From contig NZ_QKYK01000003.1 of NCBI RefSeq assembly GCF_003426815.1, forward strand, positions 310,001-374,000: a DNA stretch of 64,000 nucleotides. The letters run 5' to 3'. Origin of the DNA: Desertimonas flava (GTDB lineage Bacteria; Actinomycetota; Acidimicrobiia; Acidimicrobiales; Ilumatobacteraceae). Numbering within the stretch: the first letter of the stretch is position 1; the number at the start of each line of letters is the position of its first letter. The notes under the pieces are model-generated. The model did not search any database. It was not told the DNA's origin and was given only the letters and a program-made list of their open reading frames with translations. Positions 31,720 to 61,049 of this stretch are shown piece after piece. The translations under genes were made by a program, and so were the position numbers.

Positions 31720-31725
31720 CATCTC

Positions 31726-44691: not shown

Positions 44692-44692
44692 C

Positions 44693-45829
44693 TCAAGCAT
44701 CCCTGGAGTTGGAGAGGATCGAGCACGCCGCCTTCGAGAAGGCCTGGCTCGAGCAGTACATCGCCATCCCGACGCCGCGCACCTGGCGCTCGCCCGCCTC
44801 GCCGCGCAGCTGGCGGACGGCCTCGACGAGGTGCATCCAGCCCCACGCATAGCTCTCCGACAGCTGGCCGCCGTTGGTGTTGAGCGGCACGTCGCCACCC
44901 GGACGAGTGTGGCCCTCGGCGAGGAACGGTCCACCCTCACCGATGCCGCAGAAGCCGTAGTACTCGAGCATCTGCAGGCTCCACACCGCCGTCGGATCCT
45001 GGATGTAGAGCACGTCGATGTCGGCCGGGCCGAGGCCGGTCGCGGACCACACCGACGACGCCGCGTCGCGCAACCACGGGCGGAGCAGGTTGTCGGGTGT
45101 GTGGTCGCCGCGGATGCCCGACTGCTCGGCCATGCCGATCACGTAGGCCGGCGTCCGTCGCAGACCGGCGGCCCGGTCGGCGCTCGTGACCACGAGGGCC
45201 ACTCCCCCGTCGGAGATCATCGTCACGTCCGGGCGGCGCAGCGGCTCCACGAGGTATGGCATGGCCAGATAGTCGTCCATCGTCAGCGGGTCGCGGAAGA
45301 TGGCGTTGGGGTTCTTCGCCGCCCACTCCCGCTGCCCCACTGCGAGCCAGCCGAACTGCTCGTCGGTCGTCCCGTAGAGGTGCCGATGACGCTGCAGGGC
45401 GAGGGCCGCCGGACCGGCGATGTGCACCAGCCCCGAGGCCGTCGCCAGGTCGGTCGTCCTCGTGACCGGGGCGCCGAAGTCGACCTTCGCCGACCGGGCG
45501 TTGGCGCCGTAGCAGAGCACGATCGTCGAGGCCATGCCGGTCACGATCGCCTGCACCGCGAGGTGGAGCGAGAAGTTGCAGGTGCCGTAGTCGAGGCACT
45601 GCGAGTACCGCGGGTTGATGCCGAGCAGCGGCCCGACCGCGACATCGTTGCCGAGCCCCTGCACCGACTTGCACGCGATCAGCCCGTCGACGTCGGCCAG
45701 CGTGAGGCCGGCGTCGGCCAGGGCCAGCTCGATGGCGTCGACCGAGAGCTCCTCCACCGAGCGCCCTGGGAGCTCGCCTTGCGGGGTGTGGCCGATCCCG
45801 ACCACCGCCACCTTGCCCCGGATGCTCAT
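44693..45829 (-). CDS. Thiolase-superfamily protein, second copy
   Basis: The 378-residue paralogue of the protein at 41301 begins SIRGKVAVVGIGHTPQGE. Around the expected nucleophile it reads LDYGTCNFSLHLAVQAI near 80, so a cysteine is present, unlike the first copy. The C-terminal NTNGGQLSESYAWGWMHL near 325 replaces the His loop with a Ser-Glu-Ser form. It may be a true thiolase or an aldolase variant. Paired with the DUF35 gene; ATG overlaps the SDR stop. Confidence 0.8.
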   Translation of the reverse strand: MSIRGKVAVVGIGHTPQGELPGRSVEELSVDAIELALADAGLTLADVDGLIACKSVQGLGNDVAVGPLLGINPRYSQCLDYGTCNFSLHLAVQAIVTGMASTIVLCYGANARSAKVDFGAPVTRTTDLATASGLVHIAGPAALALQRHRHLYGTTDEQFGWLAVGQREWAAKNPNAIFRDPLTMDDYLAMPYLVEPLRRPDVTMISDGGVALVVTSADRAAGLRRTPAYVIGMAEQSGIRGDHTPDNLLRPWLRDAASSVWSATGLGPADIDVLYIQDPTAVWSLQMLEYYGFCGIGEGGPFLAEGHTRPGGDVPLNTNGGQLSESYAWGWMHLVEAVRQLRGEAGERQVRGVGMAMYCSSQAFSKAACSILSNSRDA

Positions 45830-46650
45830 CGCGCCGCCGACGTGAGAGCCACGCCACCGTCCACGGCCAGCACCTGGCCGGTGATGAACCGGGCTCGCTC
45901 CGAGAGCAGGAACCGCACGGCGTTGGCCGTGTCCCACGACGTTCCCTCGATGCCGAGCAGCGACGCCGTGCGCCGGCGCTCGCGCTGTTCGGCGGTCATG
46001 CTGCGGCCGAGCGGGGACGATGTGAACACTGGTCCGATCACGACGCAGTTGACCCGGATCCCGTCGCGCCCGTGGGCGACCGCCATCGCTTTCGTCAACG
46101 AGATCACCGCTCCTTTCGTCGTCGCGTACGGCGCCTCGTCGATGGGACGAAGAGCGCGCATCGAGCTGATGTTGACGATCGCCCCACCACCAGCCGTCCG
46201 GCACATCGCCGGGATGGCGTGCCGGCTCATCGACACCATGCTCTCGACGTTGACCTGCCAGCTCTGGGTCCACGCCTCGGTCGGAGCGGACACCACGCTG
46301 CCCGTGAACGGGATCCCGACGTTGTTGTCGAGCAGGTCGAGGCGCCCGTAGGCGTCGATCGCCGCATGGACGACCCGGGCACAGTCGTCGTCGTCGGCCA
46401 CGTCGGCTGCCACCGCGATCGCCGAGCCGCCGTCGGCCTCGATCATCTCGGCCGTGCGCTCGGCCGGTCCGGACCTCCGGCCGACGCAGACCACGGCGGC
46501 GCCGGCGCGCCCGAGCAGGATCGCCGCAGCCCGTCCGTTCGTCAGTCCGTCGTCGTCCCCGCTCGCACCGGTGACGATCGCCACCTTGCCGTCGAGGGCC
46601 TCGCCGGGGTCAACCGGCTCCGCGGCGTCGAGCGCCACCGGATCGTTCAT
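45826..46650 (-). CDS. Short-chain dehydrogenase/reductase
   Basis: The 274-residue SDR has a modified cofactor motif TGASGDDDGLTNGRA near 28 (extra acidic residues in the loop), NNVGIPFTG near 108, a catalytic Ser in NISSM near 160 and YATTKGAV near 173. Fits the oxidoreductase class that handles beta-hydroxyacyl-CoA or diols. It precedes the thiolase-like gene with an ATGA overlap, consistent with a beta-oxidation-like order. Confidence 0.84.
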   Translation of the reverse strand: MNDPVALDAAEPVDPGEALDGKVAIVTGASGDDDGLTNGRAAAILLGRAGAAVVCVGRRSGPAERTAEMIEADGGSAIAVAADVADDDDCARVVHAAIDAYGRLDLLDNNVGIPFTGSVVSAPTEAWTQSWQVNVESMVSMSRHAIPAMCRTAGGGAIVNISSMRALRPIDEAPYATTKGAVISLTKAMAVAHGRDGIRVNCVVIGPVFTSSPLGRSMTAEQRERRRTASLLGIEGTSWDTANAVRFLLSERARFITGQVLAVDGGVALTSAAR

Positions 46651-46681: not shown

Positions 46682-49258
46682 TCAGATGACGTGCTCCTCG
46701 GCGAGCCGGGCGATCTCCCGCTTGGAGAAGCCGAGCAGCTCGCCGTACACGAACTCGTTGTCTTCGCCGTAGATCGGCGCGCCGCGGTCGGGGACGCCGC
46801 CGATGTCGGCCGGCGTGGTCTCGAGCTTCACCGGGACGGCGGCGACCGGCCACCGGCCGATCTTCGTTCCCGTCACCTCCGTCAGCCACTCGAGGTGGGC
46901 GAGCTGCGGGTCCGACTCACACCGATCGGCCGCGGTCTGGCACACACCGGCGGGGACGCCGGCGCGCTGCAGGCGTTCCATCAGGTCGTAGCGCTCGTGC
47001 TGTTCGGTCCATGCGGTGACGAGGGCGTCGAGGACGTCTTGGGCCTCGACTCGGGCGGCGAGCGTGGAGAACCGGTCGTCGGCCAACCACTCCGGCCGAT
47101 CGGCGACGGAGGCGAGCGCTTCCCATTGGTCGTCGTCGCCGCATGCGATGGCGATCCACTCGTCGGTGCCGGCACAGCGGTAGATCCCGTGCGGCGCGGC
47201 CGGCTTGTTCGGCGAGCGGTTGCCGGTCCGCTGCGACGCCCGCCCGTTGGCGGTCCAGTCGAGGATCGACGTGCCGCTCGTGAAGATGCCGCTCTCGGTC
47301 TGAGACGCGTCGATCCACTGGCCCTCGCCCGTGCGCTGGCGGTGCACCAACGCGGACAGGATCGCGGTCGCGAAGCTGTAGGCGCCGATCCAGTCGAGGT
47401 ACGAGTAGCCCCATCCGGCCGGCATCGCCGGACTCGGGAGTCCCGACATCTCCGAGACGCCCGAGAAGGCGGCCGCGATCGGGCCGACGGCGCGCAAGCG
47501 GCCGTACGTCCCGTGGGCCCCCATGCCCGACTGCTGGGCGTAGATGATGTCGGGCTTGATCTCCTTGAGCGCCTCGTAGCCCAGCCCCCACCGATCCATC
47601 ACTCCGGGCGAGAACCCCTCGGCGACGACGTCGGACATGGCCACCAGACGGCGAGCGATCGCCAGACCTTCGGGGTGACGGACGTTGAGCGAGATGCCGA
47701 GCTTGCCGGCGTTCTTGTTGTTGAACTGACCGCCCATGTCGGCGTCGTCCACCCCCGGCAGCGGGGCGGTGGCGACCTCGCGAGCACGGCGGCCGCCGAC
47801 CGGCGCCATCGCACCCATGCGGGTGTCGGGGTGCGCGGCCCACTCCACCTTGATGCACTCGGCGCCGAACGCGGACAGGAAGCGCGTGCCTCCCGCCGAC
47901 GCGAGGAACCACGAGAAGTCGAGGATGCGGATGCCGTCGAGCGCGAACGGGCGCCCGTACCGGGAGCGGCGGGGGCCCGACGACGCGGCTGAGACGTCGG
48001 TCGGCGTCGGCCGTTGACGGACGGCATCCGATCGTGAGGCGAGCACGGCGTCCGTGTCCTCGCCGAGCAAGGGAGCCCGGCGACCGATCCGCCAGGACGT
48101 CGCCGTCGACAGCCACTTGCTCGTGACGTACGTGAAGGACCGCCCGAGCTCGGGGTGCTCCACCTCGGCGAACGTCTGGCGCGCCATCCAGTGGGGATCG
48201 GTGACGTTCTCCTCGGGCCGCCGGAGCGGCGAGCAGAACACTCCCGCGTCCTGCGCCTCGTTCCACGGGAACTCGGCGTAGGTGAACTTGCGCACCAACC
48301 GGGCGACGACGTCCATCAGGCGCGCGGCCACCTCGGCGTCGAGGCCGCCGCTGCCCGGGATCTGGCGCGCCGATTCGGTCGTGTCCTCCTCGACCGTCAG
48401 CGGTGATGACATGCCGTGTCGCTCGACGAACCCGGCGAGCGCCGCCCGGTCGCGGCCGCCCATGAGCATCGTCAGGATCCAGCGGCCGTCCTTGGTCTGC
48501 TGGATCGTCGGCGAGGTCGAGACCGTCTCGTTGGCGTGCCGGCACGTCTGGCGCAACAGCGGCAGCCGGCGCATCACCCAGTTCATGAGGTCGAGCTCGG
48601 TGTTCTTGGCCACCGCCTCGTGGACGGCGCACGAGAGCGCCTGACCCTGTCCGGTTCGCCCTCGGTGGAAGAGGGCGGCGAGCACCCCCATGACGACCTG
48701 TTCGCCGGCGATGTGGTAGGCGTGCCACATCTGCGGAGCGATCGGCGGGAGGTCGTATGTCCCGTCGGGACGGGGGTCGTAGCCGCAGTTCATGGTGACC
48801 CCACCGAGCGCGAGGTGGACGAGATCGGACCCCCTGAAGTCGGCCCACGGGCCGTCGTCGCCGAACGGGGTCACCCGGGCGACGACGAGCTGGGGATGCC
48901 TCCGCCCGAGGGTGTCGCGGCCGAACCCGCGGGCGTCGAGGTGGCCGCGATCGGTGGCGTCCAAGAGCACGTCGGCGCCGGCCAGCAGGTCGTCCAGGAC
49001 GGCGATACCCGCGGGATCGTCGAGGTCGCACACCACGGAGCGCTTGCCCCGGTTGTAGTGCCAGAAGTGCAGCGACCGTTCGGGGCCCGGTTCGTCGGCG
49101 TAGAACGGGCCGATCCGGCGCGTGGGATTGCCCTGCGGCGGCTCGACCTTGATGACGTCCGCGCCCAGGCCGGCCAGCAGCAACCCGGCGTATTCGGCAC
49201 GCTCGTCGGCGATCTCGATGACCCTGATGCCGTCGAGTGCGGCCTGCGATGTGCTCAC
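46682..49258 (-). CDS. Tandem family III CoA transferase (two fused domains)
   Basis: The 858-residue protein holds two CaiB/BaiF domains, about residues 1-400 (LDGIRVIEIADERAEYAGLL, DVIKVEPP near 34) and about 440-840 (LDGIRILDFSWFLASAGGTR, ECIKVEW near 475). At the place where the family carries catalytic Asp, each domain appears to have Glu (SCAVHEAVAK and DASQTESGIF). It may be an active CoA transferase with a Glu nucleophile or a two-domain pseudo-symmetric form. GTG start, GAGGA 10 nt upstream. Leads the operon with SDR and thiolase/DUF35. Confidence 0.84.
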   Translation of the reverse strand: MSTSQAALDGIRVIEIADERAEYAGLLLAGLGADVIKVEPPQGNPTRRIGPFYADEPGPERSLHFWHYNRGKRSVVCDLDDPAGIAVLDDLLAGADVLLDATDRGHLDARGFGRDTLGRRHPQLVVARVTPFGDDGPWADFRGSDLVHLALGGVTMNCGYDPRPDGTYDLPPIAPQMWHAYHIAGEQVVMGVLAALFHRGRTGQGQALSCAVHEAVAKNTELDLMNWVMRRLPLLRQTCRHANETVSTSPTIQQTKDGRWILTMLMGGRDRAALAGFVERHGMSSPLTVEEDTTESARQIPGSGGLDAEVAARLMDVVARLVRKFTYAEFPWNEAQDAGVFCSPLRRPEENVTDPHWMARQTFAEVEHPELGRSFTYVTSKWLSTATSWRIGRRAPLLGEDTDAVLASRSDAVRQRPTPTDVSAASSGPRRSRYGRPFALDGIRILDFSWFLASAGGTRFLSAFGAECIKVEWAAHPDTRMGAMAPVGGRRAREVATAPLPGVDDADMGGQFNNKNAGKLGISLNVRHPEGLAIARRLVAMSDVVAEGFSPGVMDRWGLGYEALKEIKPDIIYAQQSGMGAHGTYGRLRAVGPIAAAFSGVSEMSGLPSPAMPAGWGYSYLDWIGAYSFATAILSALVHRQRTGEGQWIDASQTESGIFTSGTSILDWTANGRASQRTGNRSPNKPAAPHGIYRCAGTDEWIAIACGDDDQWEALASVADRPEWLADDRFSTLAARVEAQDVLDALVTAWTEQHERYDLMERLQRAGVPAGVCQTAADRCESDPQLAHLEWLTEVTGTKIGRWPVAAVPVKLETTPADIGGVPDRGAPIYGEDNEFVYGELLGFSKREIARLAEEHVI

Positions 49259-49371: not shown

Positions 49372-50817
49372 CTACACCCCGACCCACACCGCCTTCACCT
49401 GCGTGTAGGCGTCGATGGCGTAGTGCCCCATCTCCTTGCCCCAGCCGCTGGCCTTGTACCCACCCCAGGCGGCGGCCGGGTCGAGGATCGGCGGCAGGTT
49501 CACGTACACGGAGCCGGCCTTGATCTGGGCCGCCATCCGGTGAGCGGTGGCGAGATCCTTGGTCCAGACCGAGGCGGCCAGGCCGTACTCGGTGTCGTTG
49601 GCGTGCGACGCCAGCTCCTCGGGATCGTCGTACGCGATCACCGGCATCACCGGCCCGAAGATCTCCTTCGTGGCGATCTCCATCCCGTGGGTCACGTTCG
49701 TCAACACGGTCGGCTCGAAGAAGTTGCCGCCCGACAGGGCACCGCCTGCCCGGCCGCCACCGGTCACGACCTCGGCGCCGTCGGTCACGGCGTTGCGCAC
49801 GAGACCGTCGATCCGCTGGAGCTCGTGCTCGGAGACGACCGGACCGAGCGTGCTCTCCGGCTCGATGCCGGGTCCGAGCCGCATCTCCCCCACCCCGGCC
49901 GACACCTTGGTCACGAACTCGTCGACGCGCCGCCGATCGACGTACAGGCGGCTGTAGGCGGCGCAGACCTGGCCGCTGTTGAAGAACGAACCGACGAGAT
50001 TGCCGCCCACGGCGGCGTCGATGTCGGCGTCGTACGTGACGATGCTCGGCGCCTTGCCGCCGAGCTCGAGCGTCACGCGCTTGAGGTTGCCGGCACTGGC
50101 GGCGATGATCTCCCGCCCGACCGAGGTCGACCCGGTGAACGACACCTTGTCGACACCCGGATGGTTCGTGAGCATCCGGCCGACCTCGGGTCCGCCGGTC
50201 AGGAAGTTGACGACACCGGCGGGGACGCCCGCCTGCTCACAGATCTGCGCCAGTCGATAGGTGGTGAGCGGTGTCTGTTCGGCGGGCTTGATGATGACCG
50301 AGTTCCCGCAGGCGAGGGCCGGGGCGAGCTTGAAGGCGGCGATCATCAACGGGAAGTTCCAGGGCGTGATCAGGGCGCACACGCCGACCGGCTCGCGGAG
50401 CGTGTAGTGGAACGTGCCCGGGATCGACAGCGGCGCCGTCGTCCCCTCGATCTTGGTGACCCACCCGGCGAAGTAGCGGAATTGCTCGGCCGTGCCGGGA
50501 ACGTTGATCCCGCGCGCCACGCCGATGAGTTGCCCCTGGTCCCGCGTCTCCATCTCGGCGAGCTCGTCGGCGTACTCGTCGATCAGCTCGGCGATGCGCC
50601 ACAGCAGCTTGGCCCGATCGCTCGGCGGCATGTCGCGCCACGCCGGATCGTCGAGGGCCGCTCTCGCCGCCTCGACCGCCGTGTCGACCTCGGCCCTCCC
50701 CGCTTCGGGCACCACTCCCAGCACCTCGCCGGTCGCCGGATCGGTGGTCTTGAACTCCCCGCCGGAACCCGACGTCAGCCACTCGCCTCCGACGTACAAC
50801 TGCGGTCGAACATCCAT
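49372..50817 (-). CDS. Aldehyde dehydrogenase
   Basis: The 481-residue enzyme has LITPWNFPLMIAAFKLAPAL near 155, KVSFTGSTSVG near 228, Glu in LELGGKAPS near 250 and Cys in SGQVCAAYSR near 283. The ALDH1-like pattern (WGGYKASGWGKEMG near 450) suggests a broad aldehyde or vanillin/benzaldehyde-type substrate. ATG 50817 has GGAG 7 nt upstream. Operator 15 drives it from within the 3' end of the upstream reductase gene. Confidence 0.85.
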   Translation of the reverse strand: MDVRPQLYVGGEWLTSGSGGEFKTTDPATGEVLGVVPEAGRAEVDTAVEAARAALDDPAWRDMPPSDRAKLLWRIAELIDEYADELAEMETRDQGQLIGVARGINVPGTAEQFRYFAGWVTKIEGTTAPLSIPGTFHYTLREPVGVCALITPWNFPLMIAAFKLAPALACGNSVIIKPAEQTPLTTYRLAQICEQAGVPAGVVNFLTGGPEVGRMLTNHPGVDKVSFTGSTSVGREIIAASAGNLKRVTLELGGKAPSIVTYDADIDAAVGGNLVGSFFNSGQVCAAYSRLYVDRRRVDEFVTKVSAGVGEMRLGPGIEPESTLGPVVSEHELQRIDGLVRNAVTDGAEVVTGGGRAGGALSGGNFFEPTVLTNVTHGMEIATKEIFGPVMPVIAYDDPEELASHANDTEYGLAASVWTKDLATAHRMAAQIKAGSVYVNLPPILDPAAAWGGYKASGWGKEMGHYAIDAYTQVKAVWVGV

Positions 50818-50830
50818 CACAGACTCCGTT

Positions 50831-52075
50831 TCATCGAGATCCCCGGGATCCGTCGAGACCGGCGCGTTCGGGCCGACGGGTGAGAAGATCGTATACCATT
50901 TTGCGGTCGACGGAAACCGACCCGCGGTCGCCGAGGAGACGGCGGGCCCGCACGTGGTCCCGGGGACGATTGACGGTCTCGACGCACACGAGGTCGTCGC
51001 CCCGGAAGCGGAGGGCCGTGATCTGCCCCGGTGTGTCGACGTGAGCGACCACGTCGTCCTCACGCCCGGCGATCCCGGCGATCTGCAACATCGAGGCCCC
51101 CTGCTCGCTCCAGAACCACAGCGGCGACGACCTCACCCGATCGTCCCCCGTGATCGAGCGGGCCGCGGTCCTCGCGGTGGCGACCGCGCTCGCCACCGAC
51201 TCGATGCGATGCGATCGACCGTCGGCGTGCCGCACCCGGGCACAATCTCCGACGGCGAAGATCGACGGGTCGGACGTGCGCATCGAGGGGTCGACGAGGA
51301 TCCCGTCGTCGACGGCCAAGCCCGCCGACGCGGCGAGGTCGGTTCGCGGCTGTGCCCCGACGGCCACGAGCACGAGATCGGCGGGCACCCGCCGGCCCGC
51401 CGCCGTCGTCACGCCGACGAGGGTGTCACGGCGCCGGACGATCTCACTCACCGAGTCGTCGAGGACGAGATCGGTACCGGACTGCACATGGGCACGCTCG
51501 AGTACCGCGGCCACGGGCGCCGACACCGCGCTGGCCAGCAGTCGTGGGGCGACCTCGATCACCGTGACGGCGACGCCCCGGGCGCGTGCCGCGGCGGCGA
51601 ACTCCAGGCCGAGGAAGCCCCCGCCGACGACCGCCAGCGAACGTGCCGAGGCGAGCGCGTGCCAGAGCCGGCACGCGTCGGAGTACGAACGCAGCTCGTG
51701 GACGCGGGCACCGTCGGCTCCGGGAACGGCCGGCCGGCGCGCGCTCGACCCGAGGGCGAGCACCAGCCGCTCGTAGTCCAGGTGCCCACCGGAGGCGAGG
51801 AGCACGCGGCGATGGGGACGGTCGATCCGGAGGACCCGTTCGCCACTCGCACGGTGCACGGCCCTGCTGGTGTAGAACGATGCCGGACGCAACGGGAGCA
51901 TCGTCGCGTCACCCGCTCGCTGCGGATGCTTGGACAACGGAGGGCGCTGGTAGGGCAGCTCGACCTCCTCGCCGACGAGATGGATCTCGCCCTCGTAGCC
52001 GCCGTCCCGCAACGACGCCGCCACCTCCACGCCGGCGTGCCCCGACCCGACGATGACCGTCCGCTCAACCGCCAT
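50831..52075 (-). CDS. Ferredoxin reductase-like flavoprotein
   Basis: The 414-residue NAD(P)/FAD protein has VIVGSGHAGVEVAASLRD near 6 (FAD), VVGGGFLGLEFAAAA near 145 (NAD(P)) and SIFAVGDCARV near 272, as in rubredoxin/ferredoxin reductases of P450 systems. It would pass electrons from NAD(P)H to the 2Fe-2S ferredoxin at 55529 and then to a P450. ATG 52075 overlaps the hydrolase stop by 11 bp. It ends an eight-gene operon from 57045. Confidence 0.85.
   Translation of the reverse strand: MAVERTVIVGSGHAGVEVAASLRDGGYEGEIHLVGEEVELPYQRPPLSKHPQRAGDATMLPLRPASFYTSRAVHRASGERVLRIDRPHRRVLLASGGHLDYERLVLALGSSARRPAVPGADGARVHELRSYSDACRLWHALASARSLAVVGGGFLGLEFAAAARARGVAVTVIEVAPRLLASAVSAPVAAVLERAHVQSGTDLVLDDSVSEIVRRRDTLVGVTTAAGRRVPADLVLVAVGAQPRTDLAASAGLAVDDGILVDPSMRTSDPSIFAVGDCARVRHADGRSHRIESVASAVATARTAARSITGDDRVRSSPLWFWSEQGASMLQIAGIAGREDDVVAHVDTPGQITALRFRGDDLVCVETVNRPRDHVRARRLLGDRGSVSVDRKMVYDLLTRRPERAGLDGSRGSR
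50888..50899 (-). promoter_or_regulatory. Cluster operator 15, inside a coding sequence (ATCGTATACCAT)
   Basis: Lies within the 3' part of the reductase frame that ends at 50831. Leftward TACGAT gives a 71-nt leader for the aldehyde dehydrogenase. Confidence 0.65.
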
Positions 52076-52892
52076 CGACACGTGCTGCTGCGGCGCCGCC
52101 GACGTGGCCCAGCACCGCCTCGTTGAACGCGTCCGGCCGCTCCATCGACACGAGGTGCCCGGCACCAGGGATCTCGACGAGCGACGCGCCGGGCAGGCGT
52201 GCGGCGAGGAGATGGGCGATCTCGCGGTATCCGTCGATGTCCAGCGTTCCCGACACCACGAGGGCCGGTGTCTCGATCGACGCGATCGCGTCGACGAGAT
52301 CGGGCAGCGGTCGGCTGGCGGGGCCGTCACCCCATTGCAGCCCGGCGAACGCGCCGACCATCCGCTCGAGGGCGCCGCGGACCTCGGATGACGCTCGCGC
52401 CGGCGCGAACAGCGGATGATGGAGCCAGAAGAGTCGTGCCGCCTCGATGCCCTCGGCCCGGGCGACGGCGGCCGCGGCGTCGGGAGGGCGTTCACCCCGC
52501 CACTGCAAGCCGGGGAGGCCCGGCGACGCCAGCACGAGCGAGCGCACGCGGCCGGGCGCCCGGGCGGCCGCGGCCAGCGCGACGTTGGCGCCGAGCGAGA
52601 GGCCGACGACGTGAGCGCGCCGTACATCGAGGGCGTCGAGCAGCGCGAGCAGGTCGTCGGCGTGGTCGAAGCCGGGGTGCGGCGGGGTCGAACGCCCGAA
52701 CCCGCGCAGGTCGTAGGCGATCGTCGGATGCCGCTCGGCCAGCGTGGCGATCTGGGGCGCCCACATCGAACGATCCAGCGAGAAGCCGTGGATCAGCACG
52801 ACCGGATCGAGGTCGGGCGCCGTCGGACCGGAACGCTCGCACCAGAGCGCGCCCTGGCCGACGGGCACGGCTCGGTCTCCGGGTACCGCCAT
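52065..52892 (-). CDS. Alpha/beta hydrolase
   Basis: The 275-residue hydrolase has VVLIHGFSLDRSMWAPQ near 32, nucleophile Ser in VVGLSLGANVAL near 95, an Asp in VVSGTLDIDG near 215 and His in PGAGHLVSME near 245. It resembles meta-cleavage product hydrolases (MhpC/BphD type), which act after extradiol ring cleavage. It lies directly downstream of LigAB-like and FAH-like genes, fitting that role. The start shares one base with the previous stop (TGATG). Confidence 0.84.
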   Translation of the reverse strand: MAVPGDRAVPVGQGALWCERSGPTAPDLDPVVLIHGFSLDRSMWAPQIATLAERHPTIAYDLRGFGRSTPPHPGFDHADDLLALLDALDVRRAHVVGLSLGANVALAAAARAPGRVRSLVLASPGLPGLQWRGERPPDAAAAVARAEGIEAARLFWLHHPLFAPARASSEVRGALERMVGAFAGLQWGDGPASRPLPDLVDAIASIETPALVVSGTLDIDGYREIAHLLAARLPGASLVEIPGAGHLVSMERPDAFNEAVLGHVGGAAAARVDGG

Positions 52893-53332
52893 CACGTCGG
52901 GACCGCCGGCGGAGCCAGCGCCGGATCGCTGAACACGCCCGAGATGCGGCGCCGTTGCAGCAGCAGGCCGCCGGTGGGCCCGATCTCGAACCGATCGTCG
53001 AAGTCGGCCACCAACGACACGCCGACCGTGCAGTGTGGTGCCGGACCGTTGGCCGCGTAGCACGTCCACACGCTGGTCGCCGTGACGACCCCGTCGCCGA
53101 GATGGTCACCGAGTCGCAGCGAGCTCCAGACGTGGCGGGTCGTGCGCACCGCCGTGGCCCTGGCCGTGAACCAGGCCGACAGCTCGGCCGCGCCGCGGAG
53201 GACGACCCGGCCGTTGTCGTACTCGGCATCGTCGCCGAACAGCGTCATCAGCCCGGCGACATCGCCGTGGTCGAGCGACCAGGCGAACGCGGCGTGATGC
53301 GCTTCGACGGTGCACCGCAGGCAGGCGCTCAT
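52892..53332 (-). CDS. SnoaL-like NTF2-fold protein
   Basis: The 146-residue protein has VEAHHAAFAWSLDHGDVAGL near 9 and LFGDDAEYDNGRVVLRG near 31, then VWSSLRLGDHLGDGVV near 68, the SnoaL-type isomerase or dehydratase layout. It sits between the FAH-like gene and the hydrolase in the ring-cleavage operon. A tautomerase-like or hydratase role is plausible. The ATG overlaps the FAH stop. Confidence 0.75.
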   Translation of the reverse strand: MSACLRCTVEAHHAAFAWSLDHGDVAGLMTLFGDDAEYDNGRVVLRGAAELSAWFTARATAVRTTRHVWSSLRLGDHLGDGVVTATSVWTCYAANGPAPHCTVGVSLVADFDDRFEIGPTGGLLLQRRRISGVFSDPALAPPAVPT

Positions 53333-54288
53333 CCCGCTGCTCGCCCGTTGGCCAACGGCGGTGACCCGGCGTCGATCGTGGCGACCTCGCTGGTCAGCGT
53401 GCCGATGCCTTCGATCGACACCTCGATCGGGCCGCCCGTGGCCGTGAGGTCGATGTTCTGGACGGCCCGGCCGCCGCCGGCCGACGCCTTCAGCGCGGTG
53501 CCCATGGCGATGATGTCTCCCGGCTCCAGCGTCATGTACTCGGAGATGAACGCCACAACCTCGGGAACCTTGTTGCGCAGGTTCGCCGTCGAGTCCTCGG
53601 TCACCGTATGCCCCCGGTGGCGGCAGCTGATCGTCAGGGCGTGCGGGTCGGCGATCTCGTCGCGCGTGACGATCCAGGGCCCGATCGGGCAGAAGCCGTC
53701 CGTCCCCTTGTACCGACCGGGGTAGCTCACCCAGGTGTCGACGTATCGCACCTCGTCCGGCGACGCTCCCGGGTGGATCGCCCGATAGTGGAACGTGTCC
53801 TCGCCACGCATCGCCGGCGCCGTGAGGTCGTTGACGATCGTGTAGCCGAAGACGTGCTCGCCGGCCGCCGTCGCCGCGATCTGGCGACCAGCGGAGCCGA
53901 TCACCACCGCCAGCTCGGGTTCGGGATGGACGCGCCCGTACGCGGTCCTCAGCTCGATCGTGCGGCGGTGCCCGAGGAGCGCAGTGGCCGGCTTGATGAA
54001 CGTCGCCGGATGCTCGGGCCCGCTCATGATGCGGTCCTTGTTCGCGCTGTTGTTCAGCGCCAGGCACACGATCTTCCCCGGCCGCGGGATCGGAGGCAAC
54101 CAGTCGAGCTCCTCCGGCGGGTACGTCGGCGCCGTCTCCGCACGCGCCTCGATCACCGGTCGCAGCCCGGTCCAGTCGGCGATCGCCGCGGCCACGGTGA
54201 GGTCGTCGTCGTCGATGACGGCCACCGCATCGCCTTTCGAGATCGCCAGACGCGGCACGCCCCCGCGCTCGACGGTGCCAAGCTTCAT
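53329..54288 (-). CDS. Fumarylacetoacetate-hydrolase family protein
   Basis: The 319-residue enzyme has KIVCLALNNSANKDR near 72, metal-binding Glu in RVHPEPELAVVIG near 118, VNDLTAPAMRGED near 152 and DIIAMGTALK near 255. The family hydrolyses fumarylacetoacetate or decarboxylates and isomerises meta-cleavage products. Here it follows the LigAB-like dioxygenase. ATG start; 16 bp from the LigB-like stop. Confidence 0.84.
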   Translation of the reverse strand: MKLGTVERGGVPRLAISKGDAVAVIDDDDLTVAAAIADWTGLRPVIEARAETAPTYPPEELDWLPPIPRPGKIVCLALNNSANKDRIMSGPEHPATFIKPATALLGHRRTIELRTAYGRVHPEPELAVVIGSAGRQIAATAAGEHVFGYTIVNDLTAPAMRGEDTFHYRAIHPGASPDEVRYVDTWVSYPGRYKGTDGFCPIGPWIVTRDEIADPHALTISCRHRGHTVTEDSTANLRNKVPEVVAFISEYMTLEPGDIIAMGTALKASAGGGRAVQNIDLTATGGPIEVSIEGIGTLTSEVATIDAGSPPLANGRAAG

Positions 54289-54304
54289 CGGTCGCCCGCC
54301 ACGA

Positions 54305-55144
54305 TCACGGCTCCACCATCAAGAGCGCACCACAGCCGGTGATGAACGGGAACGTCTGGAACCGGTACGCCGCCGTCGCCGAGGCCGACAGCGCGGCGCG
54401 CATCGCGAACCACAGAGACAGCTCGGCGGCTTCGGTCCCACCGACGCGCATGTACTCGGTGACGGGGATCTTCATCAGGTCCTCCAATCCGTCGGGGAGT
54501 CGATCGAGGAACCATCGGTCGAGGCCCTCGTTGGCGATGCCGAAGCGGCCGCCGCTGATCTGGTGCGACATGCCACCGGTCGCCACGACCACGACCCGCT
54601 CGGCGCGAGAGGCCGACTCGACGGCCGACCGGATGGCGACTCCGAGCTGGCGGATGCGGTTGGCGGTCGGCAGCGGAGCGCGGACCATGTTGACGGCGAT
54701 CGGCGTGATCGGCGTCGGCCACGGCACGTCCATCACATACGGCAGCCACGAGTAGATGCCGTGGTCGACGTGGAGATCGTGGCAGATGGTCAGGTCGAAC
54801 TCGCTCGCCACGAGGGATTCGGCAAGGTGGATCCCCCACTCCGGGTCACCGTCGAGGTCGGGCAGCGGCCGCCGCCCCCACCCCTCGTCGGCCTGGGGGA
54901 ACGTGTCACCGATGCCGATCGCGATCGTCGGGAGGTTGTCGAGGTCGAAGTGGTTGAGGTGGTCGTTGTAGACGACGACGAGATGGTCGGCGGACAGCCC
55001 GGCGAGCAGCTCGCGGAGCCGACGCGTCCCGTCGAACCAGGGTTGCCAGCGTGGCGTGAACTCCCCCGTGCGGCGGTAGGCGTCGTGCTCGACACCCATC
55101 GACGGGGTGTGCGAGATGCCGAGACCTCCGACGACCGTCGCCAT
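54305..55144 (-). CDS. LigB-like class III extradiol dioxygenase, catalytic subunit
   Basis: The 279-residue protein has the LigB signature GGLGISHTPSMG near 6 (first metal His), YNDHLNHFDLDNLPTIAIG near 58 (second His) and VVVATGGMSHQISGGRFG near 185. With the small LigA-like gene upstream it forms the two-subunit class III extradiol dioxygenase, as in protocatechuate 4,5-dioxygenase. It opens a catechol ring using Fe(II) and O2. The start shares one base with the LigA stop. Confidence 0.86.
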   Translation of the reverse strand: MATVVGGLGISHTPSMGVEHDAYRRTGEFTPRWQPWFDGTRRLRELLAGLSADHLVVVYNDHLNHFDLDNLPTIAIGIGDTFPQADEGWGRRPLPDLDGDPEWGIHLAESLVASEFDLTICHDLHVDHGIYSWLPYVMDVPWPTPITPIAVNMVRAPLPTANRIRQLGVAIRSAVESASRAERVVVVATGGMSHQISGGRFGIANEGLDRWFLDRLPDGLEDLMKIPVTEYMRVGGTEAAELSLWFAMRAALSASATAAYRFQTFPFITGCGALLMVEP

Positions 55145-55521
55145 CAGCGCTGCCCGTCGGGGAGACCGTCGACCCAACGCGGGCAGGCGGCGCGCAACTC
55201 GTCGCGGCTGCAGCCGACCGTGTGGGCACCGACGTCCCACAGGTCCTCGCCCACCGTGGCCGCCAGCTTGAGGATCGCCTGCAGGTGGCCGCCCGCCCGC
55301 AGCAACCCGGTCCAGTCCCGCTCCCGGACGAGGTCGCATTCGTGGTCGGTCAACGAGGCGGCACGCATCGCGGCCGCGTCGTCGGCGAGGAACGCCGCCC
55401 GCGCCTCTGGATCGCGCAGGCCGAGTGCGAAGCGGTTGAGCCGCCGGCCGTCGAACGCGCGTCGCGCCGTGAACTCGAACGTGCCCGGTTCGCCGAGATC
55501 GAACGCCGGTGCCGGGATCAC
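55144..55521 (-). CDS. LigA-like subunit of extradiol dioxygenase
   Basis: The 125-residue protein has NRFALGLRDPEARAAFLADD near 30 and LVRERDWTGLLRAGGHLQ near 62, with CPRWVDGLP near the end, matching LigA (alpha subunit) of protocatechuate 4,5-dioxygenase. It would cap the active site of the LigB-like subunit. GTG 55521 is chosen because upstream codons are GTC. 7 bp after the ferredoxin stop. Confidence 0.84.
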   Translation of the reverse strand: MIPAPAFDLGEPGTFEFTARRAFDGRRLNRFALGLRDPEARAAFLADDAAAMRAASLTDHECDLVRERDWTGLLRAGGHLQAILKLAATVGEDLWDVGAHTVGCSRDELRAACPRWVDGLPDGQR

Positions 55522-55528
55522 CGCGACC

Positions 55529-55852
55529 TCACGTCTGCCGCGACGGGACGACGACCGTGGCCCCGTCGAGCGCGGCGGTGACCGGGACCTGACAGCTGAG
55601 CCGGCTCGTGGATCGACGCGGCTCGGCCGTGCAGTCGAGCAGTTCGTCCTCGGACTCCGACATCGGAACGAGACCCACCAGCGCCTCGTCGGCGAAGTAC
55701 ACGTGACACGTGGCGCACATGAGCGAGCCGCCGCACTCGGCCACGATGCCGTCGACGCCGTTGGTGACCCCACCCATCATGACGCTGGTGCCGGCAGCCA
55801 CCTCGACGGTGACGACCGTCTGGTCGGGTTGGACGTAGCGAACGGACGGCAT
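55529..55852 (-). CDS. 2Fe-2S ferredoxin (P450-type)
   Basis: The 107-residue ferredoxin has the Cys cluster ECGGSLMCATCHVYF near 39-53 and a fourth Cys in SCQVPV near 86, as in putidaredoxin-type carriers. It would shuttle electrons from the reductase at 50831 to the P450 at 55858. The ATG lies 5 bp after the P450 stop. Confidence 0.87.
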   Translation of the reverse strand: MPSVRYVQPDQTVVTVEVAAGTSVMMGGVTNGVDGIVAECGGSLMCATCHVYFADEALVGLVPMSESEDELLDCTAEPRRSTSRLSCQVPVTAALDGATVVVPSRQT

Positions 55853-55857
55853 CGTGG

Positions 55858-57045
55858 TCAGCTCGGCGTCCAGACGACCGGCAGCGTCAGGAGACCGCGG
55901 AAGACCCAGCCACCGAGGCGGACCTCGCCGTGGGGGGACACGGCGAGGTCCGCGATCCGGTGGAAGAGGGTGGGCAGGGCGACCTGCGCGACCTGCGCCC
56001 GGGCCACCCATGTTCCGAGGCAGAAGTGAGGGCCGCCGCCGAAGGCGACGTGCGGCCGGGACGGTCGGAAGATGTCGAACTCGTCCGGACGCTCGAACAC
56101 GGACTCGTCCCGGTTCGCCGAGCCGACGCAGATGCCGAGCTTCGAGCCGGGCTCCAGCGTGACCCCGCCCAGCTCCACCCGTTGCGCGACCTGCCGGGGG
56201 TACATCCCGATCGGGGCGACCCAGCGGATGGCCTCCTCGAACACCGATCGCCACAGCGACGGATCCGACACGACCGCGTCGCGTGTCGCCGGGTTCGTCA
56301 ACACCGCCCAGATCGCCACGGACATCGAGTCGCGTGGCTCGTTGAGGCCGCCGCCGATGAAGACCTTGACGTTGGCCCGGATCTGCTCGATGTCGAGGGG
56401 ATCAGGAGCGTGGATCATCGCCGAGATCACCGATTCGTCGGGCGTTCGGGAGACCCGGGCGACAGTGTCGGCGACGGCGGCGTCGATCTCGTCGCCGGCC
56501 CGCCGCGCCCGTTCCCACACCTCCGGATCGTCGGCATAGTTGCCGCCCCCGTCCATCATCGCCTGCGACCAGCGCTGCATGTCGATGTCGGAGACGCCGT
56601 CCAGTCCGAGCACCATCGCCAGGTTGCGGGCAGCCAGCGGTCCGCAGAACTCGTCGAACAGGTCGGCCTCACCGCGATCGACGAACGAGTCGATCAACTC
56701 GTTGGCGTTCGCTTCGAACTTCGGTCGCCAGTGGGCCTCGACGATCCGGGGACGTAACGGGGGCTCGGCCGCCGCGCGCTCACGGCGATGGGCGTCGCCG
56801 TCCTTGCGGAGCAGCGTGTGCCCCATCACCCTGGTCATGAGGGATCCGTCCTCGGCCGCGCTGAAGATCTCCGGCTGCTTCTCGAGGGCGGTGATGTCCT
56901 GATGACGAGTCACGAGGTATCGGCCCGCAACGGGAACCCAGGCGACCGGCGCGATCTCCCGCAACGTCCGGTAGATCGGGTACGGATCGGCGTAGAGGTC
57001 GGTGAGCGAGATCGAGTCGGCGAAGTCGCCGTGCGCCGTCCCCAT
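55858..57045 (-). CDS. Cytochrome P450, non-standard I-helix
   Basis: The 395-residue P450 has the heme loop FGGGPHFCLGTWVARAQ near 338, but the I-helix reads GGGLNEPRDS near 233 instead of the AGxET acid-alcohol pair, which may alter proton delivery or catalysis. ATG 57045 has a GGAG about 8 nt upstream. It leads an operon with ferredoxin, LigAB-like dioxygenase, FAH, SnoaL, hydrolase and reductase. An O-demethylase for a methoxy-aromatic, preparing the ring for LigAB, is a plausible role (inference). Confidence 0.85.
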   Translation of the reverse strand: MGTAHGDFADSISLTDLYADPYPIYRTLREIAPVAWVPVAGRYLVTRHQDITALEKQPEIFSAAEDGSLMTRVMGHTLLRKDGDAHRRERAAAEPPLRPRIVEAHWRPKFEANANELIDSFVDRGEADLFDEFCGPLAARNLAMVLGLDGVSDIDMQRWSQAMMDGGGNYADDPEVWERARRAGDEIDAAVADTVARVSRTPDESVISAMIHAPDPLDIEQIRANVKVFIGGGLNEPRDSMSVAIWAVLTNPATRDAVVSDPSLWRSVFEEAIRWVAPIGMYPRQVAQRVELGGVTLEPGSKLGICVGSANRDESVFERPDEFDIFRPSRPHVAFGGGPHFCLGTWVARAQVAQVALPTLFHRIADLAVSPHGEVRLGGWVFRGLLTLPVVWTPS

Positions 57046-57224: not shown

Positions 57225-58154
57225 GTGAGCGAGATCCACTACACGCTGCGTCAGCTGCAGTATTTCGTCGCGGTCGCCGAGACCGGGACGATGAGCGGCG
57301 CGGCAGCGCTCTGCCACGTGTCGCAGCCCGGCCTGTCGCTCGCCATCTCCCAACTCGAGCGCAGCCTCGGCGTCAAGCTGCTCGTCCGCAACCGGGCGAA
57401 GGGCGCAACGCTCACCCCCGCCGGAGATCGCCTGCTCACCGACGCCAAGGCGCTCCTCTCGCAGGCCGAGGGACTCCAGGAGCAGGCCGACCTCGAGGGC
57501 GGTGGGCTCACCGGCCGGCTCGCCGTCGGGTGCTACGCGACGCTCGCCCCGCTCCTGATCCCGGCCTTGTTGACCGGGTTCGAGCAGGTGTGTCCAGGCG
57601 TCACGCTGGAGTTCACCGAGAACCCCCAGCCTGAACTGCAGCAAGCGCTTCGGGAGGGGGCGATCGAGGTCGCCTTCCTCTACGACCACCAACTCGGCGC
57701 CGACCTCGACCACGTCGTGGTCGATCGGGTCGTGCCGTACGTCCTGCTGCCGGCGGACCATCGCTTCGCCGGCGACGACGAGGTGCAGCTCGAGTCCCTG
57801 TCGAGCGAGCCGATGATCCTGTTCGACGTCCCGCCGAGCCGGCAGAACTGGCAACGCATGGTGAGTGCCGTCGGGGTGGAGCCGCTGGTCGGCCACACGA
57901 CCCAGAACTTCGAGCTGGCGCGCAGTCTCGTGGGTCGCGGTCTCGGCTACGCGCTGCTGCTCCAGCGACCGCCGATCGAGTGGACGTACGAGGGCCGCCG
58001 GGTGGTCGCCAAGCCGATCGCCGAGCAGATGCCGACCATCGACATCGTGCTCGCCCACGCCGTCGGCACCCAGTTGACGGCGCGTGCCCGGCGCTTCACC
58101 GAGTTCACGATCGCCACGCTCAGCGCGCGAGCCGAGCTCGATCCGACCGGCTGA
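57225..58154 (+). CDS. LysR-family regulator, second copy
   Basis: The 309-residue regulator opens TLRQLQYFVAVAETGTMSGA and AALCHVSQPGLSLAISQL, then has a substrate-binding domain from about 90 (LAVGCYATLAPLLIPALL). It is divergent from the P450/LigAB operon and should control it through the palindromes between them, sensing a ring-cleavage intermediate. GTG 57225 is chosen; longer frames read through the operators. Related to the LysR at 30774. Its 3' end overlaps the convergent gene at 58120. Confidence 0.87.
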   Translation: MSEIHYTLRQLQYFVAVAETGTMSGAAALCHVSQPGLSLAISQLERSLGVKLLVRNRAKGATLTPAGDRLLTDAKALLSQAEGLQEQADLEGGGLTGRLAVGCYATLAPLLIPALLTGFEQVCPGVTLEFTENPQPELQQALREGAIEVAFLYDHQLGADLDHVVVDRVVPYVLLPADHRFAGDDEVQLESLSSEPMILFDVPPSRQNWQRMVSAVGVEPLVGHTTQNFELARSLVGRGLGYALLLQRPPIEWTYEGRRVVAKPIAEQMPTIDIVLAHAVGTQLTARARRFTEFTIATLSARAELDPTG

Positions 58155-58797
58155 CGCCGTCGACGAGGGGGTTCTCCGGCGCGAAGACCTCGAGCGCCAG
58201 CGCGAGCATCGAGTAGTAGCCGACCAGCCACGTGAGCTCGGCCAACCCCTCCTCGCCCAGCAGGGTGAGGGCGGCGTGGAACCGGGCATCGTCGAGGCGG
58301 CGCTCACGTGTGAGCACCCGGGCCAGGGCGACCAGTTCCTGGTCGAACGCGTCCAGCGCGGCCGGTCGCCGACCAGAGAGGAGGTCGTCGAGCACGTCGT
58401 CGGCGATGCCCTCGGCGATCGCCGCGCGCTCGTGGGCCCACCATTCGAAGGCCGAGCCGAGCTCGCCGGCGACGGTCATCACGACCAGCTCGCGGCGACG
58501 CGCGTCGAGCGAGGTGCCGAACCGCAGTGCCACCCCGAGGGCCTGGACGGCGTCGCCGACCTCCGGCGAAGCGAGCATCACACGGAACGGGCCGAGCAGC
58601 CGGCCGGCGTCGTCGACGATGGGCACCGTGCCGACCCCGGCCCGGCACCCGCCCGCGATGGCGTCGTGAAGCCGGCGCGCCGGTGCGTCGAGTTGGTCAG
58701 GGGCGAGGAGGGTCAGGCGCGCCGCCGGCCAGGGCGGCGGGGCCGGCCGACCCGACGATGCGGACGATGCGGACGATGCGGACGATGCGGACGCCAT
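58120..58797 (-). CDS. Carboxymuconolactone decarboxylase/AhpD-like protein
   Basis: The 225-residue protein has LGVALRFGTSLDARRREL near 88, VAGELGSAFEWWAHERAA near 112 and a late LGEEGLAELTWLVGYY near 178, the CMD/AhpD fold. No CxxC pair is visible, so peroxidase activity is unlikely. The N-terminus is low-complexity Ser/Ala, encoded by tandem GACGATGCG units, so the start (58797, or 58821) is uncertain. Role unknown. Confidence 0.7.
   Translation of the reverse strand: MASASSASSASSASSGRPAPPPWPAARLTLLAPDQLDAPARRLHDAIAGGCRAGVGTVPIVDDAGRLLGPFRVMLASPEVGDAVQALGVALRFGTSLDARRRELVVMTVAGELGSAFEWWAHERAAIAEGIADDVLDDLLSGRRPAALDAFDQELVALARVLTRERRLDDARFHAALTLLGEEGLAELTWLVGYYSMLALALEVFAPENPLVDGVSRSDRARLAR
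58758..58793. repeat. 9-bp tandem repeat, about four units of GACGATGCG
   Basis: Unit GACGATGCG repeats four times in a row near the 5' end of the leftward CMD-like gene. Length variation would add or remove Ser/Ser/Ala residues without shifting the frame. Confidence 0.6.
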
Positions 58798-59614: not shown

Positions 59615-60574
59615 ATGACCTCCCAACCTGACGCCGGTATCCCTCGCCCACCCGACTCCGGCGCTCCCCGTGCGGCTGCCGACCTGCGGGTCGGTTTCGT
59701 CGGACTCGGCCGCATGGGCTGGCCGATGGCCCACAACCTCGCCGCCGCCGGCGTCCGCCTCACCGTGCGTGACAGCGACGACAGCGTCCAACAGCGCTTC
59801 CTCGACGACCACGGCGGCCGCGGGGCATCGTCACCCGCCGACTTCGCCGACGCCGACGTGGTGATCACGATGCTCCCCGACGGGAGCGTCGTTCGCCACG
59901 TGCTGCTCGAGTGGGAGGGCGGCATCGCCGGCGCCATGGCCGCCGGATCGCTCGTGGTCGACATGAGCTCGTCGGCGCCGACCGACACCCTCGAGCTGGC
60001 GGCGACCCTCGCCGCCCGGTCGATCGGTGTCGTCGACGCACCCGTCTCGGGCGGCCTGGTCCGGGCGACCGACGGCACGTTGTCGATCATGGTGGGCGGC
60101 GACGACGACGCGATCGCCCGGGCCGTCCCGCTCCTCGACGTGCTGGGCGATCCGGCGCGGCGGTTCGCGTGTGGAGGGCTGGCCAGCGGCCACGCGATGA
60201 AGGCGCTGAACAACTTCGTCGGCGCCGCCAACTACGCGGCCACCGCCGAGGCGCTCGCCATCGGTCGGGCCTTCGGACTCGCGTCGAAGACGATGGTCGA
60301 GACCATCAACGCCTCGACGGGCAGAAGCTTCGAGAGCGAGGTGGTGCTCGAACACCACGTGGTCAACGGGGCATACGCGACGGGCTTCGGGCTCGGCCTG
60401 CTCGCCAAGGACGTCGCCATCGCCGCGTCACTCGCCGAGCGTGTCGAGGTCGACGCCCCGACCGCCGAGTTGATGCACGCGAGGTGGCGCGACGCCGAGA
60501 GCAGGCTGGGCGGAGCGCGCGACCACTCTGAGGCCCACCAGGCGTGGTGGGACATCGAGCTGACGGCCGGCTGA
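59615..60574 (+). CDS. 3-hydroxyisobutyrate-dehydrogenase-like oxidoreductase, third paralogue
   Basis: The 319-residue enzyme has VGFVGLGRMGWPMAH near 26, DAPVSGGLVRATDG near 141 and catalytic Lys in HAMKALNNFVG near 196. Most similar in layout to the paralogue at 25806, including EIARWARS-like C-terminal HSEAHQAWWD. The ATG is 24 bp after the FCD remnant. Likely oxidises a 3-hydroxy acid. Followed by a carboxymuconolactone-decarboxylase gene, repeating the pair seen at 25806/26740. Confidence 0.84.
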   Translation: MTSQPDAGIPRPPDSGAPRAAADLRVGFVGLGRMGWPMAHNLAAAGVRLTVRDSDDSVQQRFLDDHGGRGASSPADFADADVVITMLPDGSVVRHVLLEWEGGIAGAMAAGSLVVDMSSSAPTDTLELAATLAARSIGVVDAPVSGGLVRATDGTLSIMVGGDDDAIARAVPLLDVLGDPARRFACGGLASGHAMKALNNFVGAANYAATAEALAIGRAFGLASKTMVETINASTGRSFESEVVLEHHVVNGAYATGFGLGLLAKDVAIAASLAERVEVDAPTAELMHARWRDAESRLGGARDHSEAHQAWWDIELTAG

Positions 60575-60635
60575 CGCCTCGACGTGACCGCCGCCGCCCA
60601 CGACGCGACATCCAGCGAGACAGGGGAAACCATCG

Positions 60636-61049
60636 ATGATCCGTGATGACGAGTACGACCGCGGCCTCGGAGTGCGCCGCGAGATCTTCGGCAGTGCCGG
60701 CGCCGAGCAGCAGACCGAGTCGACGACCGAGCTCACCGACAAGATGCAGGAGATCGTGACCCGGTGGTGCTTCGGCGACATCTGGACACGCGACGACGAA
60801 CTCTCGAGACGGCACCGCAGCCTCATCACGGTGGCCATGCTCGTCGCGTTGGGGCGTCCCCACGAGCTCAACATCCACATCCGCGGCGCCCTCGCCAACG
60901 GCGTGACGGAGCGTGAGCTGCGGGAGGTCTGCCTCCACGCCGTGCTCTACTGCGGCATCCCGTCCGCCAACGAAGGCCTCCGGGTGCTCGAAGCGGTCCT
61001 CCGCGACCGGGACCCCGAGTCGCCGTTGCTCCAGCCCGCCGCCCCCTGA
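60636..61049 (+). CDS. Carboxymuconolactone decarboxylase family protein, paralogue
   Basis: The 137-residue protein has RWCFGDIWTRDDELSRRHRS near 43, HELNIHIRGALANG near 78 and VLYCGIPSANEG near 106, closely matching the protein at 26740. It lies 61 bp downstream of the third HIBDH-like gene, so the HIBDH-CMD pair is duplicated in the cluster. A role as a decarboxylase of a lactone or carboxymuconate-like intermediate is inferred. Confidence 0.82.
   Translation: MIRDDEYDRGLGVRREIFGSAGAEQQTESTTELTDKMQEIVTRWCFGDIWTRDDELSRRHRSLITVAMLVALGRPHELNIHIRGALANGVTERELREVCLHAVLYCGIPSANEGLRVLEAVLRDRDPESPLLQPAAP

Follow-up and report, generated by a model that had tools for sequence, protein, structure and literature searches.

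A cytochrome P450-linked LigAB-type operon of Desertimonas flava predicted to degrade a methoxylated aryl acid

The closest described counterpart of the operon considered here is the Mga pathway of Pseudomonas sp. NGC7. According to the portions of PMC12314914 that treat this pathway, VanA1B1 demethylates syringate to 3-O-methylgallate; MgaAB, a LigAB-like enzyme, opens the ring to give CHMOD, a methyl ester; MgaC, an alpha/beta hydrolase, is held to cleave this ester because the mgaC mutant accumulates PDC; MgaD, a SnoaL-like (pfam13577) protein, is a predicted tautomerase; and GalD, GalB, and GalC complete the route from syringate. The formation of CHMOD from 3-O-methylgallate by LigAB has also been reported with purified Novosphingobium enzymes (PMC8091115, in the part concerned with this reaction). 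Here we describe an operon from a 64,000-nucleotide stretch of Desertimonas flava (GCF_003426815.1, contig NZ_QKYK01000003.1, positions 310,001 to 374,000, forward strand; hereafter the window), in which a cytochrome P450 and its redox partners are encoded together with a LigAB-type ring-cleavage enzyme and its potential product-processing partners. We consider it somewhat probable that the operon serves to break down a methoxylated 4-hydroxyaryl acid: demethylation by the P450 would be followed by LigAB cleavage beside a methoxy group, ester hydrolysis, and processing by the SnoaL and FAH proteins.

Eight genes lie in a row on the minus strand, each with a Pfam match above the curated cut-off of its family: a CYP1232A24-like cytochrome P450 (55858 to 57072, starting at GTG 57072 or ATG 57045; PF00067, 59 bits), a 2Fe-2S ferredoxin that is its likely electron donor (55529 to 55852; Fer2, 25.6 bits), the LigA-like alpha subunit of a class III (LigAB-type) extradiol dioxygenase (55144 to 55521; PF07746, 75 bits), its LigB-like catalytic subunit (54305 to 55144; PF02900, 160 bits), an FAH-family protein (53329 to 54288; FAA_hydrolase, 158 bits), a SnoaL_4/NTF2-like protein (52892 to 53332; PF13577, 33 bits), an alpha/beta hydrolase (52065 to 52892; Abhydrolase_1, 102 bits), and a ferredoxin reductase (50831 to 52075; Pyr_redox_2, 220 bits, and Reductase_C, 63.5 bits). 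From the P450 to the reductase, the seven junctions measure +5, +7, -1, +16, -4, -1, and -11 nucleotides, four of them being overlaps. The content, order, strand, and mostly overlapping arrangement of these genes had been noted in the original prediction and are borne out, as is the LysR-type regulator on the opposite strand (57225 to 58154), which diverges from the P450 at a distance of 152 nucleotides with the chosen starts; a LysR gene also lies near the P450 in the related loci L012, L033, and L034. The extent then assigned, 50831 to 57045, does hold the eight genes, but the unit runs past 50831, with an aldehyde dehydrogenase gene (ALDH; 49372 to 50817, minus strand) beginning at ATG 50817, 13 nucleotides downstream of the reductase, and possibly serving the upper pathway. 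A CMD-family gene beyond the LysR gene (58120 to 58626, minus strand) probably belongs to the operon's gene set, because L012, L014, L033, and L034 each have a homologue in the operon or next to it. A promoter scan returned 0 sites, and terminator-like sites numbered 4 against a mean of 2.5 in shuffled sequences, an uninformative difference.

In the pathway that we propose, the P450, ferredoxin, and ferredoxin reductase would remove one methyl group, leaving two adjacent hydroxyls next to the remaining methoxy group. The LigAB-type dioxygenase would then open the ring beside the methoxy carbon, a cut that would make the product a methyl ester, and the alpha/beta hydrolase would split this ester with the release of methanol. 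The SnoaL-like protein would tautomerize the acid, and the FAH-family protein, as a decarboxylase or tautomerase, would lead it toward central metabolism. We infer these reactions, the order of the late steps, and the substrate, which would be syringate or the homologous phenylacetate, alongside what is directly observed in gene content, gene order, conservation, family membership, and conserved metal-site and catalytic columns. That the P450 prepares the ring, perhaps by O-demethylation, and that its own operon opens the ring and processes the product had been suggested before; both suggestions are favored by the comparisons below, which concern the O-demethylase kin of the P450, the other O-demethylase types beside the module, and the analogous Mga pathway. 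The candidate substrates named at that time, methoxylated catechols and protocatechuate (PCA) analogues, are best extended to include acids resembling syringate and homosyringate.

Among PDB sequences, the P450 best matches CYP1232A24 of Arthrobacter (6G71; 419 bits), followed by SyoA (210 bits), P450 9IA1 (197 bits), and GcoA (179 bits). Its predicted model (mean pLDDT, 76.9) superposes on 6G71 with a Z score of 43.1 and a root-mean-square deviation of 2.3 over 380 residues. At 45% identity over these aligned residues, the pair lies above the rule of at least 40% for a P450 family, which would place the operon protein in CYP1232. The next 19 rows of the fold search comprise 17 GcoA variants and 2 SyoA structures and therefore represent only two proteins, both crystallized with methoxyphenols. 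These are aryl-ether demethylases too, but they are only 28 to 30% identical to the operon P450; furthermore, the reductase of GcoA is a single polypeptide, and SyoA works as a peroxygenase. The motif GGGLNEPRDS is common to the operon P450 and CYP1232A24, with GGG(L/I)NEPRD in close relatives, and we take it to stand where the I helix usually carries an acid-alcohol pair. The heme-cysteine motif, FGGGPHFCLG, is present, as are Fer2 and Reductase_C genes in the operon. CYP1232A24 presumably converts homovanillate to 3,4-dihydroxyphenylacetate in the course of papaverine breakdown by its papaverine-degrading host; to our knowledge it has not been linked to LigAB. At a threshold of 1e-40, relatives of the P450 occur in 188 plasmid records, and among the best 60 of these, one, with 38.7% identity, is annotated virH2. 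VirH2 of Agrobacterium is part of the vir regulon on Ti plasmids, and we know of no coupling between it and LigAB. VirH proteins demethylate ferulate, as stated in the pertinent part of PMC4285021. Judged by its sequence, the operon P450 belongs with the aryl O-demethylases, which is its predicted activity. Another P450 of the window (29421 to 30671) was set aside as a partner, being only 26% identical.

A scan for LigB in a genome collection of 84,980 species, sensitive to close relatives only, gave 19 loci, and a plasmid search gave 140 records, of which the best 30 were examined. Twelve of the 19 loci (56 to 70% identity), the two best plasmid records, and the window group together, at 100/100 support, in a 15-member clade that excludes LigB, DesB, and the PCA-type enzymes and that has members in Actinomycetota and several groups of Pseudomonadota. 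The final tree omits L005 and L026. Both were part of the first tree, where L005 has a long branch and sits on the same side of the 100/100 split as the module; L003 and L004 gave no tblastn match when rows were gathered. The clade is rare. LigB matches occur in 2 of 61 near genomes at 1e-20 and in 3 of 396 genomes of the phylum at 1e-60, counts that both include the D. flava genome itself; no clade member is found among the other sampled genomes' matches placed in the tree, the two further phylum matches falling outside, and none is seen among the 395 other phylum genomes sampled at 1e-60.

The His, His, and Glu columns that we take to be iron ligands, together with the catalytic His column, are conserved in all 15 clade members, and the LigA/LigB pairing is that of class III extradiol enzymes. 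In family, iron-site columns, and catalytic His, the operon enzyme thus resembles LigAB (1B4U) and DesB (3WKU); it differs in its separate 100/100 clade and in having Leu, in 15 of 15 members, at the columns of both Glu377' of DesB, a gallate enzyme, and Phe103 of LigA, a PCA enzyme. The structural part of PMC3962378 names His124 and His192 of DesB, gives Thr13, Thr267, Tyr391', and Tyr412' as the residues contacting the carboxylate, and has Glu377' contacting gallate. In the clade, the Thr13 column holds Thr in 13 members and Ser in 2, the Thr267 column is Thr in all 15, and Tyr412' lies outside the alignment. The Leu at the Glu377' column would suit an aryl acid lacking a free third hydroxyl, although the loop alignment is uncertain. 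Two established activities were considered and rejected: PCA 4,5-dioxygenase, because a LigB on contig C67 of the same genome pairs with 1B4U at 100/98 and the operon LigB does not, and gallate dioxygenase, because the Glu377' column is Leu. The operon LigAB also misses the NCBIfam cut-offs for PCA and gallate dioxygenases. In passing, we note that the PCA-type LigB on C67 is accompanied by a LigK-like match and that contig C28 carries three RraA/LigK-like matches in a row, one with an internal TAG, beside a LigB relative.

Near LigB in the 15 clade loci, LigA is present in all, the FAH and SnoaL genes in 14 each, and a full-length hydrolase in 13, with a partial one in another. L023 has LigA and LigB only, and gene order and strand vary in L013 and L021. 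In the latter, a gammaproteobacterial metagenome-assembled genome, the module (11130 to 13328) is rearranged, with LigA and SnoaL on the opposite strand and a partial hydrolase match. None of the seven control loci, whose LigB relatives fall outside the clade, gave a match to the FAH, SnoaL, or hydrolase protein, although one of them, L026, is a contig of 9 kb that breaks off at LigB. LigA-LigB-FAH-SnoaL-hydrolase is a module conserved across distant bacteria beyond what chance would give. Genes of the Asp/Glu racemase family lie near it in two betaproteobacteria (L013, 12658 to 13515; L019, 611 to 1249) and might encode a cis-trans isomerase of the same pathway.

Candidate O-demethylases of three unrelated kinds occur in the examined flanks of 7 of the 15 loci: the window, L012, L033, and L034 have a CYP1232-like P450 beside the module; VanA-type Rieske genes number two in L019 and also occur in L033; and a LigM-type gene lies in L015, scoring 469.6 bits against the vanillate/3-O-methylgallate demethylase LigM versus 49.6 for the next family, with a 95% identical counterpart in L016. 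By tblastn, the controls (L024 to L030) gave a weak Rieske match in one of seven and P450 matches of about 30% in three of seven. Two Rhodococcus plasmids (L033 and L034) have the order LysR, P450, ferredoxin, reductase, LigA, LigB, FAH, NTF2, CMD, and hydrolase; the window has the same gene set, but its reductase comes last and its CMD gene lies beyond LysR. In Agrobacterium leguminum, LysR, P450, ferredoxin, and reductase genes adjoin those of a branched-chain-type ABC transporter, with no LigA or LigB annotated in 17 kb. Because the kind of O-demethylase varies from module to module, and because the A. leguminum cassette stands without annotated LigA/LigB, the demethylase cassette and the ring-cleavage module appear to be two separable units brought together.

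The Ser-Asp-His triad of the alpha/beta hydrolase is kept in 13 of 13 full-length proteins, in an alignment that omits the partial hydrolase of L021. Its best-scoring models are PcaD-like lactonases (115 bits for PcaD, below the cut-off), with 56 bits for the C-C hydrolase HsaD. Since the operon has the same four kinds of parts as the NGC7 pathway, ester cleavage seems the best role, making this a candidate methylesterase like MgaC in kind; the SnoaL-like protein is likewise a candidate tautomerase, like MgaD in kind. In the FAH-family protein, E123, E125, and D154, which we assume to bind metal, are invariant in 11 of 11 proteins of one alignment and in 14 module proteins of another (the L015 and L020 rows being trimmed to 330 residues). 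By contrast, at the positions presumed from FAHD1 to form the His-Glu catalytic dyad, the first is never His in the 14 proteins and the Glu column is Arg (12) or Lys (2). The predicted model is poorly placed around this stretch (pLDDT of 57 for residues 81 to 90), and in fold it comes closest to maleylpyruvate hydrolase (Z, 33.2) and YisK (Z, 33.0), with MhpD at a Z of 16.3. An acylpyruvate hydrolase was set aside on account of the lost dyad, despite these top folds. With the dyad gone, decarboxylation or tautomerization is to be expected rather than hydrolysis, in what we regard as the least certain step.

Set against the NGC7 pathway, the operon likewise unites a candidate O-demethylase, assigned by family only, with LigA-like, LigB-like, alpha/beta hydrolase, and SnoaL-domain proteins, kinds that Pfam matches to the descriptions in the relevant part of PMC12314914. 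It differs in having a P450 chain rather than VanAB, FAH and CMD genes with the module, no GalDBC, and a LysR neighbor where the same part of that source places the Up operon of NGC7 under the GntR repressor VanR2. The word P450 is absent from the main text of PMC12314914. Neither GalD, GalB, nor GalC was found among the operon genes with Pfam or NCBIfam, and LigK-like matches elsewhere in the genome are below the model cut-off. Several points count against the proposed pathway. The comparison with MgaA-D is one of protein kinds, and FAH does not figure in the NGC7 pathway as described in the cited part of PMC12314914. None of the O-demethylase types searched for occurs in the examined flanks of 8 of the 15 clade loci. 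All 15 clade members have Gly at the column of Tyr391', and the Leu found at the Phe103 column is shared by two of the four rows from outside the clade. The LigA-loop alignment sets Phe103 of LigA on Asn387 of DesB, whereas PMC3962378 has it correspond to Glu377; because of this conflict, we treat the loop columns as weak evidence. The ALDH 13 nucleotides downstream fits an aldehyde product equally well. Lastly, the characterized P450 relative, as we understand it, acts on phenylacetates, versus a benzoate in NGC7. The pointers to the substrate disagree accordingly, the NGC7 analogy suggesting syringate and the P450 relative, together with the HpaD/HpaE block described below, suggesting phenylacetates.

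On the same strand, the ALDH is followed at 113 nucleotides by a fused double CoA-transferase of family III (46682 to 49258; 72% identical in a Phytohabitans island) and then by an SDR oxidoreductase (45826 to 46650, after a gap of 31 nucleotides), a thiolase-fold, lipid-transfer-protein-like protein (44693 to 45829, junction of -4; 81% identical in Phytohabitans), and its ChsH2-like (DUF35) OB-fold partner (44278 to 44700, junction of -8). The plus strand bears a homoprotocatechuate meta-pathway block (31726 to 36783) of FAH-RraA fusion, HpaI/DapA-like, HpaE, and HpaD genes, with homologues in the Phytohabitans island, and HIBADH-like and PcaC-like CMD genes (59714 to 61049); homologues of both are found close to the module in L015 and L016 and again in that island, and L021 has a PcaC-like one near its module. 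HpaD (383.2 against a curated cut-off of 321.4) and HpaE (692.8 against 638.35), at 34 to 37 kb, exceed their thresholds; HpaD is therefore a separate ring-cleavage enzyme nearby. The claim in the original prediction of a second ring-cleavage route beside HpaD stands insofar as HpaD is distinct, but the routes are more than two, given the PCA-type LigB on C67.

About 41 kb of Phytohabitans flavus holds relatives of both the operon and the HpaD/HpaE block: HpaD, a first P450 with ferredoxin and reductase, LysR, CMD, and a second P450 with LigA, LigB, FAH, SnoaL, and hydrolase, then DhaKL, HpaI-like, GntR, FAH-RraA, ALDH, PcaC-like, HIBADH, ChsH2-like, thiolase-like, SDR (by eye), CoA-transferase, and HpaE. 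From this, the part of the window between 22 and 62 kb appears to be, in large measure, one catabolic island, in which the homoprotocatechuate branch may serve singly methoxylated acids and the LigAB branch doubly methoxylated ones. In the Phytohabitans record (L031/L032; L012, 1003 to 2138), the HpaD homologue and the first ferredoxin reductase each match in two adjoining frames, suggesting frameshifts or sequence errors. Other catabolic genes of the window include a DhaK/DhaL-like kinase, HIBADH, a PcaC-like CMD protein (153.0 bits; cut-off, 155.7), GntR, ALDH, and the distant P450 at 29421 to 30671, all within 22715 to 36783, and a second set of CoA-transferase, thiolase-like, and DUF35-like genes on the plus strand at 37853 to 42883 (by eye); part of these blocks recurs in the Phytohabitans island. 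Elsewhere, two FAD-dependent FMO-like monooxygenases of 641 and 653 residues in opposite orientations (8895 to 10820 and 14377 to 16338), near an alpha/beta hydrolase and two short genes that are similar (the one scanned having a lipocalin-like domain), possibly form Baeyer-Villiger-type blocks.

These neighbors bear on other explanations of the operon. The P450 could demethylate its substrate fully to a catechol, for instance homovanillate to homoprotocatechuate, so that LigAB would give a semialdehyde for the operon's ALDH to oxidize and the hydrolase would act on a lactone. The closeness of the ALDH, the formation of 3,4-dihydroxyphenylacetate by CYP1232A24, the nearby HpaD and HpaE, and the best, below-cut-off scores of the hydrolase with PcaD-like lactonase models all agree with this, as does an ALDH-family match in the examined flank of 5 of 12 genomic loci (L013, L015, L016, L019, and L020), at least 3.5 kb from LigB. 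However, the module lacks an adjacent ALDH in the other loci read; the nearest ALDH homologue in Phytohabitans (68%) lies about 13 kb from LigB with CoA-transferase, thiolase-like, and ChsH2-like genes; and HpaD and HpaE could already serve homoprotocatechuate. We hold full demethylation to be improbable, though by some way the least so of the alternatives.

It is quite unlikely that the substrate is an alkyl- or acyl-substituted catechol, from which LigAB would form a ketone, with the hydrolase as an MhpC/CarC-like C-C hydrolase and FAH as a hydratase. Pairs of LigAB-type enzymes and C-C hydrolases are known, as in carbazole degradation, and the FAH and MhpD-type folds are related, but the P450 is nearest to aryl-ether demethylases, such a scheme would leave unaccounted for the LigM-type genes that L015 and L016 carry beside the module, and the hydrolase scores less than half as well with HsaD as with PcaD. 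Just as small is the chance that the P450 acts on a larger plant product, such as an alkaloid or lignan, with LigAB taking a fragment after the CoA-transferase, SDR, thiolase-like, and ChsH2-like proteins have shortened the side chain. The joint occurrence of related genes along the Phytohabitans island and the papaverine degradation by the CYP1232A24 host would fit, but the two Rhodococcus plasmids show, within 15 kb, no homologues of the CoA-transferase, thiolase-like, or ChsH2-like proteins of the window; that span does contain genes for an acyl-CoA synthetase, an SDR, and MaoC in L033 and for a CoA-transferase subunit in L034.

Returning to the LigAB cleavage of a methoxylated acid as the preferred explanation, the syringate-type pathway is known in kind; what would be new is a P450-driven version with an FAH and CMD step of unexplained role. 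Among the papers listed by searches of the open-access PMC literature, none, judged by its entry, describes this operon, and there was none on CYP1232A24 or CYP1232; the sections concerned of PMC9867520 (Rhodococcus vanillate demethylase) and PMC11530827 (PbdA) hold nothing on it. The syringate pathways summarized in PMC12314914 have in common, in that summary, the steps of 4-oxalomesaconate hydratase and aldolase. As a tentative extension, which we think rather doubtful, the operon might be a complete P450-driven route for syringyl acids, plasmid-borne in Rhodococcus, whose de-esterified and tautomerized product would be decarboxylated through the dyad-less FAH and CMD proteins, thereby bypassing these two steps; in the window, the ALDH, CoA-transferase, SDR, thiolase-like, and ChsH2-like genes would channel material from a longer side chain into it. 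Lignin bioconversion finds one of its difficulties in the syringyl (doubly methoxylated) units, and O-demethylation frequently forms a bottleneck. A P450 demethylase with its own redox partners, coupled to a ring- and ester-cleaving module and also found on Rhodococcus plasmids, is directly testable and could serve engineering. If true, the proposed pathway would furnish a probable function for LigA- and LigB-type proteins currently carrying the annotation hypothetical or protocatechuate 3,4-dioxygenase.

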